From contig NZ_AUWQ01000013.1 in NCBI RefSeq assembly GCF_000455205.1, positions 45,649 to 109,648 of the forward strand: a stretch of 64,000 nucleotides of DNA, in the 5' to 3' direction. A program made the position numbers and the translations under genes. Positions 8,005 to 17,679 of the stretch are shown piece by piece. Source of the stretch: Mycobacterium sp. UM_CSW (GTDB lineage Bacteria > Actinomycetota > Actinomycetes > Mycobacteriales > Mycobacteriaceae). Below the pieces are notes generated by a model. It saw only the letters and a list, made by a program, of their open reading frames with translations, was not told the DNA's origin and ran no database searches. Position 1 is the first letter of the stretch. Each line of letters begins with the position of its first letter.

Positions 8005-11000
8005 GTGCTTGAGCATTCCATTCCCGAGGTCCTGCGGGAGCGTGCCAGCTCGCGGCCCAACGACCTGGCGTTCACCTATGTCGATTACGAGAACGACTGG
8101 GAGGGCGTTGCGGAAAGCCTGACGTGGTCACAGCTGTATCGCCGCACGCTGAACCTCGCACGTGAGCTCAAAACCTGCGGGTCTACCGGCGACCGCGCCG
8201 TCATCCTGGCGCCGCAGGGGCTCGAGTACGTCGTCGGCTTTCTCGGCGCGCTGCAGGCCGGTCAGATCGCGGTTCCGCTGTCGATGCCGGTGGGTGGCGC
8301 CAGCGACGAGCGGGTCAGCGCCGTCCTGCATGACGCGTCGCCTTCGACGATTCTGACCACATCCGCTGCCGTGGACATCATCGCCGAGTACGCGAAGTCG
8401 GAGCCCGGTGCGCCATCGGTCGTCGAGGTCGATCGGCTGGATCTTGACTCTCGGCAAACGGTCGCCGCGGGCACCGACGGCGCGACGAGCATCGCGCACC
8501 TGCAATACACCTCCGGGTCGACCCGCACTCCCGCGGGAGTTGTCGTCTCGCACAAGAACATTCAGGTCAACTGCGAGCAGATCATGGCCATGTACTACGA
8601 GGCCGAGGGTGGGATGGCCCCGCCAGACACCACCGTGGTGTCGTGGCTGCCGCTCTTCCATGACATGGGTTTGATCCTGGGTATCGCCTTCCCGGTCCTG
8701 TGGGGATTCCCCACCGTGCTCACGAGCCCGCCGTCCTTCCTGCAGCGCCCGGCGCGGTGGATGCAAATGCTGGCCAGCAATCCGCACGCGTTCTCGGCGG
8801 CGCCCAACATCGCGTTCGAATTGGCGACGCGAAAGACGTCGGACGACGACCTGGCGGGGCTGGACCTCGGGGGCGTGCACACCATCCTCAACGGCGCCGA
8901 GCGTGTGAACCCCCCGACGCTGTGGCGCTTTGCGGACCGCTTCGCCCGCTTCAACTTCCGCCCCGAGGCGTTGCGTCCCTCCTACGGACTCGCGGAGGCC
9001 ACGCTCGTGGTGGCGACCCGCCAGGCGGGTCACCCCCCGGTGACAGTGTCTTTCGATTCGGAGCAGATGACCGCCGGCCGTGGCGAGCGGTGCGCGGACG
9101 GTGCCGGTATCCCGCTGGTCAGTTATGGCATGCCGAAGTGGCCGATCGTGCGAATCGTCGACCCCGAGACGAGCATGGAGTGCCCGGAGGGAACGGTCGG
9201 CGAGATCTGGACGATCGGCGAGAACGTCTGCTCTGGCTATTGGCAGAAACCCGAAGAGACAGAACGTGTCTTCGGCAGAGCTATCGTCGGCGCGTCGGAC
9301 GGCACACCGGAAGGGCCGTGGCTGCGGACGGGGGATCTGGGCTTCTACTCCGAAGGCGAGATGTTCATCGTCGGCCGGATCAAGGATCTCTTGATCGTCT
9401 ACGGGCGCAACCATTCTCCCGACGACATCGAGGCGACGATCCAGGAGATCACCCGCGGCCGCTGCGTGGCGATCGCGGTTTCGGATGATGACGGTCCCGA
9501 GAAACTCGTCACAATCGTCGAACTCAAGCCCGGCGGCGATTCCGAAGAGGACGCGCTACGGTTGATCGCCACCCGGCGTGAAATCATCGCAGCGATATCG
9601 AGGACGCACGAACTGAGCGTCGCGGATCTCGTTCTGGTGCCCCCACATTCGATTCCCCTCACCACAAGCGGCAAGGTGAGGCGACGGGATTGCTCAAAGC
9701 TTTATCAGCAGGGCGCATTCACCCGTTTGGACGCGCACATCGGCCCGTCAAAGCCGCCCGCGGTCGAGGACACCGCCGCGGACGCAGGGGCCGACTCGGG
9801 ATTGGCCCAACGTGTTCGCACGCTAAGCCAGCAGCAACACGACCTGCTGGTGGGGATGGTCTGCGCGCAGGCGGCGGCGGTGTTGGGGCGTCCGAGCCCG
9901 GACGACATCGACCGCGGGTCGGCGTTTCGCGACCTGGGTCTTGATTCGGTGAAAGCCACGGAATTGCTCGACCGGCTCAGGACCGAAACCGAGCTGCCGT
10001 TGCCGCCGACGCTGGCGTTCGACTATCCCACCCCCGACGAATTGGCCGCCCATTTAGCCCAGCTGCTGATCGGGCCGGTCGCGGCGGCCTCGCCGGTGGA
10101 GTCGCAGGTTGCGGTGGACGAGCCGATTGCGGTGGTGGGCATGGCGTGTCGGTTCCCGGGTGGGGTGGATTCGCCGGCGGCGTTGTGGGATTTGGTGGCC
10201 AGCGGTACGGATGCCGTCGGGGCGTTTCCGGCCGACCGGGGTTGGAATTTGGGGGAGTTGTTCGACCCCGACCCGGATGCGGTGGGCAAGACGTATACCC
10301 GCGCGGGTGGGTTCTTGGCGGACGCGGCCGGGTTCGACGCGGAGTTCTTCGGGATCTCGGGGCGTGAGGCCCAAACCATGGATCCCCAGCAGCGGCAGCT
10401 GCTGGAGGTGTGCTGGGAAGCGTTGGAAACGGCTCGAATTGATCCGGCCGGGTTGGTGCGGACCGAGACCGGCGTGTTCGTCGGCGCGTGGTCACAGTCT
10501 TACGGCGGGGGCGGCTCGGAGGGCGTGGAGGGCTACGCGCTGACCGGCCTGTCCCCAAGCGTGGCGTCCGGGCGAATCGCTTATGCGCTGGGCTTGCAGG
10601 GCCCCGCGATCACCGTCGACACCGCCTGTTCGTCGTCGTTGGTGGCCACGCATTTGGCGTGTCAGTCGCTGCGCAATGGGGAGTCTTCTTTGGCGTTGGC
10701 CGGTGGGGTGACGGTGATGACGACGCCGTCGGTGTTCACCGAGTTCGCGCGCCAGCGTGGGCTGGCCGCCGACGGGCGCTGTAAAGCGTTCTCCGCCAAC
10801 GCCGATGGCACCGGCTGGGGTGAGGGTGCCGCGGTGCTGGTGTTGGAGCGCTTGAGTGATGCGCGGCGCAATAACCACCCGGTGCTGGCGGTGATCGCGG
10901 GCTCGGCGATCAACCAGGACGGCGCCTCCAACGGATTGACCGCCCCGAACGGGCCCTCCCAACAACGCGTCATCACCCAGGCCGCGGCCAACGCGGGCAT

Positions 11001-17679: not shown

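Follow-up and report, generated by a model that had tools for sequence, protein, structure and literature searches.

In mycobacteria, surface lipids are usually the joint product of distinct FadD, Pks and Pap proteins working in sets, such as FadD23-Pks2-PapA1 and FadD28-MAS-PapA5 in M. tuberculosis. The work of these sets comprises the activation of a starter, its extension and the release of the acyl chain. Fusions of a fatty acyl-AMP ligase (FAAL) with a polyketide synthase (PKS) have been described for the desmamides and micacocidin (accessible part of PMC11837247), and the cyanobacterial olefin synthase unites FAAL, acyl carrier protein (ACP), ketosynthase (KS), acyltransferase (AT), ketoreductase (KR), sulfotransferase and thioesterase domains (accessible part of PMC3903477); FAAL, ACP, PKS and release in one protein are already known from that enzyme. 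Here we describe a gene of Mycobacterium sp. UM_CSW at positions 8005-17679 (+ strand) of a 64,000-nucleotide stretch of contig NZ_AUWQ01000013.1, the whole of which is referred to as the window. The encoded protein is probably a single-chain lipid synthase and acyl-donor enzyme, carrying out one extension and transferring the product through its C-terminal domain (the C domain)—a single chain that would do the work of separate FadD, Pks and Pap proteins. M. tuberculosis is not known to have such an enzyme at this locus, in line with what the original prediction put forward. In the open literature (subscription papers and preprints being outside the scope, which makes this weak evidence of absence), we found neither a FAAL-ACP-PKS-ACP-acyltransferase arrangement in one mycobacterial chain nor its assignment to a mycobacterial lipid, the latter having been raised as a possible refutation when the architecture was first noticed.

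The gene consists of one open reading frame (ORF) with a GTG start, encoding 3224 amino acids (aa), and its codon-position GC content of 0.70/0.51/0.85 is coding-like; the frame is confirmed as a real gene. The original prediction, made from the DNA letters, had placed a FAAL, two carrier domains, a fully reducing PKS module and a terminal acyltransferase in these 3224 residues, and this layout was borne out by Pfam and NCBIfam models together with the fold of the C domain. With DH and ER denoting dehydratase and enoylreductase, the domains are as follows.

8005..9735, + strand: FAAL domain, aa 1-577; fatty acyl-AMP ligase, Pfam AMP-binding at 11-413, closest solved structures FadD23 and FadD28
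9862..10056, + strand: ACP1, aa 620-684; Pfam PP-binding, serine in GLDSVKA
10120..11388, + strand: KS, aa 706-1128; Pfam ketoacyl-synt at 706-953, C half at 961-1078, Cys-His-His intact
11728..12699, + strand: AT, aa 1242-1565; Pfam Acyl_transf_1, GHSQG and YASH (methylmalonyl-type motif)
12835..13647, + strand: DH, aa 1611-1881; Pfam PKS_DH, HRVNDTILFP and HPALLD
13909..14217, + strand: structural (pseudo) KR, aa 1969-2071; Pfam SpnB_Rossmann
14335..15192, + strand: ER, aa 2111-2396; Pfam ADH/ER, NADPH motif HAGAGGVG
15220..15756, + strand: KR, aa 2406-2584; Pfam KR, LDD and YAAAN motifs
15982..16209, + strand: ACP2, about aa 2660-2735 (limits approximate); second Pfam PP-binding stretch, serine in GIDSLTA
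16315..17676, + strand: C-terminal condensation/PapA5-fold domain, aa 2771-3224; assigned by fold, catalytic-type H2907-xxx-D2911

The N terminus passed the NCBIfam fatty-acid-AMP ligase model NF004509 (932 bits, cut-off 775) and scored 890 and 842 bits against the FadD28 and FadD21 exception models, both below the cut-off of 1100; residues 2-577 matched FadD23 at 761 bits, and the ATP-loop YTSGSTRTPAG and the lysine of LTTSGKVRR are present. The core passed the type I PKS model NF045894 (1764.5 bits, cut-off 1740) and contains KS, AT, DH, ER, KR and ACP with their active-site residues—the set of a fully reducing modular type I PKS. These domain assignments support the view that a single chain unites activation of the starter, one module with full reduction and, at its end, a domain of acyltransferase fold.

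The last 454 residues gave no significant match in Pfam (best PF02458, E 0.11) and none in NCBIfam. Neither PF00668 (Condensation) nor PF03007 (WS/DGAT) was matched by the C domain in the Pfam search, whereas the window gene at 23177 does match PF03007. The identity of the domain was assigned by fold (structure comparison, with Foldseek among the searches) and not by sequence family, and it has both the fold and the HxxxD motif of the PapA/Condensation superfamily; the histidine and aspartate of this motif are invariant in all 44 aligned C-domain sequences, free-standing ones included. Relatives of the domain occur in 162 of 198 sampled Mycobacterium genomes, the listed matches lying mostly in frames of ~450-550 aa, i.e., free-standing. 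The domain also recurs in other genera (a family-level sample of 61 genomes), where no match better than E 1e-5 lay in a frame longer than 1097 aa and two weak partial matches fell in frames of 2191 and 2618 aa. A plasmid origin was considered and set aside, as a protein search of a plasmid collection with the C domain gave two partial matches, in Tsukamurella (33% covered) and Nocardia (31%).

From the domains, their order, motifs and conservation, and from the fold of the C domain, all of them read from sequence or model, we infer the substrates, a single round, a role in release and an acceptor. The FAAL would adenylate a free long-chain fatty acid and load it onto ACP1, with a palmitate-like starter suggested by the kinship of the FAAL to FadD23 and FadD28. 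The KS would condense the loaded starter with methylmalonyl, selected by the AT, on ACP2, and KR, DH and ER would fully reduce the beta carbon to give a 2-methyl acyl chain. Using its HxxxD histidine, the C domain would then pass the chain on ACP2 to an acceptor, most likely a glycolipid, at one of its hydroxyl (or amine) groups, and this transfer would close the cycle after one extension. It had also been proposed that one chain may make a complete methyl-branched product by itself; both release by the C domain and a protein working alone are presumed.

The choice of extender was judged by comparison within the genome. GHSQG/YASH and GHSVG/HAFH are motifs associated with the choice of methylmalonyl and malonyl, respectively, by AT domains, and methylmalonyl and malonyl units alternate in mycoketide. 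A 4164-aa two-module protein of the same genome, presumably Pks12-like from its size and domain order, carries GHSQG/YASH in one AT and GHSVG/HAFH in the other; the pair matches the mycoketide alternation, and by that yardstick the window AT would use methylmalonyl-CoA. Another contig of this genome (C141, locus L179) encodes adjoining one-module PKS proteins of 2116 and 2114 aa with a methylmalonyl-type and then a malonyl-type AT, like a split Pks12. An attempt to read methyl stereochemistry from the ER motif was dropped, as Phe occupies the key position in the Pks12-like protein's methylmalonyl-type module, and this module offers no calibration.

The enzyme is not unique to this locus. A query of FAAL plus ACP1 covered both domains at no fewer than 23 places in at least 20 of the 198 Mycobacterium genomes, source genome included (threshold E 1e-250, with five candidates considered in each genome, which makes these figures lower bounds). 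A contig scan for relatives kept the best 80 of 195, and domains were mapped in 100 loci (L060-L159), all found through the C domain. Motifs were counted in 30 intact full-length proteins (the window protein and 29 others, any gene with two locus numbers being counted once), in all of which the C domain is present by construction. The FAAL...DH-ER-KR...C architecture is shared by 17 of the 30, the window protein among them; five have KR as the sole reducing domain (four M. asiaticum strains and genome G064), four have no reducing domain (contig C112 of the source genome, M. paraense, a bog metagenome-assembled genome and M. parafortuitum), one has a degenerate DH only (Mycolicibacterium sp. 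P1-5), and in the remaining three the starter ligase is an AMP-binding domain other than a FAAL, benzoate-CoA-ligase-like in the one tested (L071). Outside the 30, two consecutive modules are encoded in two adjoining ORFs in M. innocens and M. ostraviense (L074, L075) and over several frames in G029 (L076). The KS Cys-His-His triad, both ACP serines and the C-domain HxxxD were found in 30/30; the AT motif is GHSQG/YASH in 26 and HAFH in four, and the FAAL ATP-loop and lysine motifs are retained, with small changes, in the 27 FAAL-type members. Loci of M. interjectum, M. paraense and M. bohemicum hold fused paralogues, and the environmental carriers include M. terramassiliense, a species from plant roots. 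The window enzyme appears to belong to a family of one-piece enzymes with mixed and matched parts.

Two variants deserve separate mention. On contig C112 of the same genome (L060:5547-12287), a non-reducing sister of 2246 aa, FAAL-ACP-KS-AT-ACP-C, is followed by a 739-aa protein of the AT3-SGNH cluster. In L071, L072 and L132, a C domain with 70% identity is attached to PKS stock of another kind, whose AT is of the malonyl type and whose starter domain (tested in L071) resembles benzoate-CoA ligase.

That the fusion might be an assembly error, a doubt raised along with the original prediction, was rejected on the strength of the 30 intact full-length frames with their active-site motifs kept and of purifying selection on the chain, given as the ratio of nonsynonymous to synonymous substitution rates (dN/dS). 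Relatives in two or more frames do occur in M. interjectum (a window-type copy) and in G029, and may reflect real decay or sequencing error; the same FAAL architecture is nonetheless present in 17 intact single frames, window included, one of them in a one-contig genome (G161), and the chance that the gene is an assembly artefact or decaying is negligible. Compared over the whole chain with its closest named orthologues, those of Mycobacterium sp. E796 and sp. 1245805.9, the gene has dN/dS values of 0.14 and 0.15; the ratio is 0.20-0.21 for two window-type copies that are farther removed and 0.26-0.27 for two paralogues. For the C domain it was 0.05-0.12 against the four window-type copies and 0.30-0.31 against the two paralogues. 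The window synthase is real and conserved, and it is functionally plausible.

Not all parts of the chain appear to share one history. Between E796 and the window gene, synonymous divergence (dS) is 0.40 for KS and 0.65 for AT, against 0.13-0.23 for FAAL, ACPs, DH, ER, KR and C; with 1245805.9 the contrast is weaker (KS 0.32, AT 0.29, DH 0.28, other domains 0.16-0.25). The C112 paralogue is 95% identical to the window protein in KS, 67% in FAAL and 73% in C. FAAL and C trees follow the gene lineage, whereas those of KS and AT group C112 with the lineage of the window gene (support 0.93 at the KS node, 0.10-0.26 at inner nodes), and in the AT tree C112 pairs with E796 (0.85) and two M. alsense copies pair with each other (0.99). 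The KS-AT stretch (window 10120-12699, compared with L060 on C112 and with L080) looks gene-converted between paralogues, with separate histories for FAAL and C; such conversion would produce both the tree and the dS pattern. The KS tree further places the FAAL-type family as a single clade near the Pks12-like modular KSs and the aryl-starter versions among the latter, and the C domain therefore seems to have been joined to different PKS stock.

To gauge the acceptor, ten neighbour proteins from four loci of relatives (L101, L105, L107 and L095) were annotated. Adjoining the fused genes of the first three are genes for O-methyltransferase, DUF2142, AT3-SGNH acyltransferase, epimerase, glycosyltransferase, GMC oxidoreductase, UDP-sugar dehydrogenase and GDP-mannose dehydratase proteins, and similarity clusters of these neighbours recur in related loci; one L105 neighbour protein had no match, and the L095 neighbour is an alpha/beta hydrolase. 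Condensation and MmpL domains were searched for in five genomes (G134, G097, G017, G161 and the source genome), and in G134, G097 and G017 a fused gene is flanked, within ~50 kb, by a peptide synthetase pair (~1522 and ~4220 aa) on one side and by two adjacent MmpL genes on the other. Within 20 kb of the free-standing C homologue of the source genome (contig C23) there are genes for FAAL, MmpL, glycosyltransferase, GDP-mannose dehydratase and MAS-like PKS proteins. Given the sugar, MmpL and glycosyltransferase neighbours of the relatives and of the C23 homologue, our leading guess for the acceptor used by the family is a glycolipid; such neighbours are lacking around the window copy.

Contig C4 of G134 (L068, L187-L190) is a glycolipid-type locus, with synthetases of 1522 and 4223 aa, a 3689-aa PKS, glycosyltransferases, an MmpL pair and a fused FAAL-PKS-C gene. 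The G134 synthetases hold one and three adenylation stretches, and a search for a terminal reductase in the two gave no match at E 1e-6, for which reason we do not claim these paralogue loci as canonical glycopeptidolipid loci. According to the accessible parts of PMC5996870 and PMC7261415, C-type glycopeptidolipids have a tripeptide-amino-alcohol core, and those of the serine type, from M. xenopi, a tetrapeptide core.

Several observations count against a synthase with one methylmalonyl extension and C-domain transfer to a glycolipid. In the DH motif HRVNDTILFP, Asp replaces the Gly that is usual there. The rule that links AT motifs to extenders is correlative and not universal, since the AT of the MAS-like PKS on C23 fits neither motif. 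A C-domain profile found no significant sequence relative among solved proteins and acyltransferases, and hhalign found nothing between the domain and a PapA-type neighbour, so that it is not detectably PapA by sequence. Its top fold match by Z was AzeD, titled a dehydratase (22.5), and PapA5 and peptide-synthetase condensation domains were tied within a Z of 1; the fold therefore leaves the reaction unfixed. No glycosyltransferase, MmpL or PapA genes were found among the scanned neighbours of the window copy, in G161 a long distance separates the fused gene from the peptide synthetases, and the synthetase, MmpL and fused-gene pieces of the source genome lie on separate contigs.

Three other accounts of the protein were considered. 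An iterative, MAS-like synthase, whose module would extend several times and give multi-methyl-branched chains before C-domain release, is unlikely but the strongest of these: MAS and Pks2—single-module, fully reducing enzymes served by FadD28/FadD23-type FAALs—are iterative, the window FAAL is of that type, and the NCBIfam Pks2 model does match, at 1074.5 bits. That score, however, is far below the equivalog cut-off of 2400 bits, and the window KS does not group with the MAS-like KS, being 45-47% identical to the genome's own MAS-like PKS versus 66-69% to modular Pks12-like KSs; one round per module is favoured because the KS is of modular type and natural two-module members exist. An amide-forming C domain, for which the acceptor would be an amine (such as an amino acid or amino sugar) in place of an alcohol, would fit the condensation-domain fold and the peptide synthetases in the loci of some fused relatives. 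We hold it to be distinctly improbable, as the fold search cannot tell ester from amide formers, Pfam finds no carrier or adenylation domain after the C domain, and most of the genes annotated next to fused paralogues concern sugars or acyl transfer. That the C domain has a structural, hydrolytic or dehydratase-like role in place of acyl transfer, with the chain leaving as a free acid or being moved by another enzyme, is highly unlikely in view of the invariant HxxxD residues and the low dN/dS of this domain. A single extension followed by transfer through the C domain remains the reading that we prefer.

Around the window gene, HpcH/HpaI- and bkdABC-like genes, an enoyl-CoA hydratase, an F420 reductase and a TetR gene lie to the left, and DUF732, cutinase, HSP20, carboxylesterase (lipase), WS/DGAT, PlsC-like and PlsB-like genes to the right; the carboxylesterase gene is presumably lipQ by synteny. 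The immediate neighbours are as follows.

7334..7897, + strand: TetR-type regulator, directly upstream; candidate controller
17901..18794, + strand: DUF732 protein, directly downstream on the same strand; possible partner

Three PKS-free relatives (L184, L185 and L186) were compared at this position. DNA similarity between L184 and the window ends at 7899, just past TetR, and returns at 21530; in L185 the hydratase and lipase genes are 2.2 kb apart; and in L186 the cutinase lies beside the hydratase with no PKS in the slot. Window positions 7899-21530 form a variable slot between the enoyl-CoA hydratase and lipase genes, with differing cargo in the three other genomes compared; the PKS gene therefore lies in a variable slot, and neither TetR nor the cutinase is tied to it. 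TetR as a dedicated regulator is weakened in that the empty site L184 keeps hydratase, F420 reductase and TetR without the PKS, and the cutinase at 18831 as a partner in that it matches at E 1e-60 or better in 45 of the 198 genomes, mostly without a window-type gene. An imperfect inverted repeat upstream of the gene (7913-7922/7961-7970) is not called an operator. The five best DUF732 matches among the 198 genomes (at least 69% identity, next 59%) are in the source genome and in four genomes whose C domain is at least 87% identical; DUF732 may be tied to the PKS gene, a co-occurrence that synteny alone could explain. Farther away, window positions 31243-33510 (- strand) encode a 755-aa NACHT-domain protein with a third-position GC of 0.67, below most neighbours—a possible recent arrival or defence gene, for which a PADLOC scan gave no match.

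Taken together, we tentatively propose, with slightly less than even confidence, that mycobacteria possess a series of one-chain acyl-donor machines built combinatorially. The starter ligase (fatty or aryl), the number of modules and the reductive loop would vary by exchange, gene conversion would keep the KS-AT cores alike, and the finished chain would pass directly to a (glyco)lipid acceptor through a condensation/PapA5-fold domain that belongs to an unnamed family. If true, the series would be a bacterial counterpart of the fungal fusions of PKS with carnitine acyltransferase (cAT) and a natural experiment in PKS engineering. Starter, extension and release could be tested in one purified protein, and the natural variants reveal PKS junctions tolerated by evolution. 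The family also points to lipids of non-tuberculous species for which we found no gene assignment, and it offers a testable function for the acyltransferase-fold family common in Mycobacterium, of which the window member stands outside the Pfam and NCBIfam models.

Among known systems, the window FAAL matched the FAAL domain of PDB 7r7e, from a PKS of Synechococcus sp. PCC 7002 that we take to be the olefin synthase (Ols), at 324 bits. The source organism of that structure is given in the accessible part of PMC11837247. Like the window gene, Ols of this strain has ~10 kb coding for FAAL-ACP, one PKS extension module and built-in release; it differs in that KR alone reduces, malonyl-CoA is used, the sulfotransferase-thioesterase end leads to an alkene, and four of 17 pathways are split in two ORFs (accessible part of PMC3903477). 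The Ols order FAAL-ACP-KS-AT-KR-ACP recurs in the window protein with DH and ER added, and no terminal sulfotransferase or thioesterase was matched in it by Pfam; unlike Ols, it has full reduction, a methylmalonyl-type AT and a condensation/PapA5-fold end.

The order of the C112 paralogue, FAAL-ACP-KS-AT-ACP-C, reads as FadD32 plus Pks13 in one chain. In the FadD32-Pks13 system of mycolic acid condensation, a FAAL likewise charges a PKS at its N-terminal ACP, and the last domain of that PKS both releases the chain and passes it to a sugar (accessible part of PMC7261415); FadD32, however, is a separate protein, and Pks13, whose terminal domain is a thioesterase, accepts a long acyl chain that is carboxylated. 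The window protein scored 781 bits against the Pks13 equivalog cut-off of 2100, with no Pfam thioesterase match. The M. tuberculosis sets FadD23-Pks2-PapA1 and FadD28-MAS-PapA5 perform the same three jobs, with FAALs closest to that of the window and, in PapA5, the fold of its C domain, but as separate proteins; the window KS is not of MAS type, and its C domain is not recognisable as PapA by sequence.

The folds of cAT and condensation domains are presumably akin. The fungal highly reducing PKS LtbA, for luteodienoside A, offloads its chain onto a glycosylated polyol through a fused C-terminal acyltransferase (accessible part of PMC10901484); this cAT belongs to another family. Finally, the condensation domain of the enacyloxin PKS (PDB 6cgo), titled for condensation domain-mediated chain release from a PKS, is in the Foldseek list for the window C domain, albeit from a separate biosynthetic system and at 14% identity.
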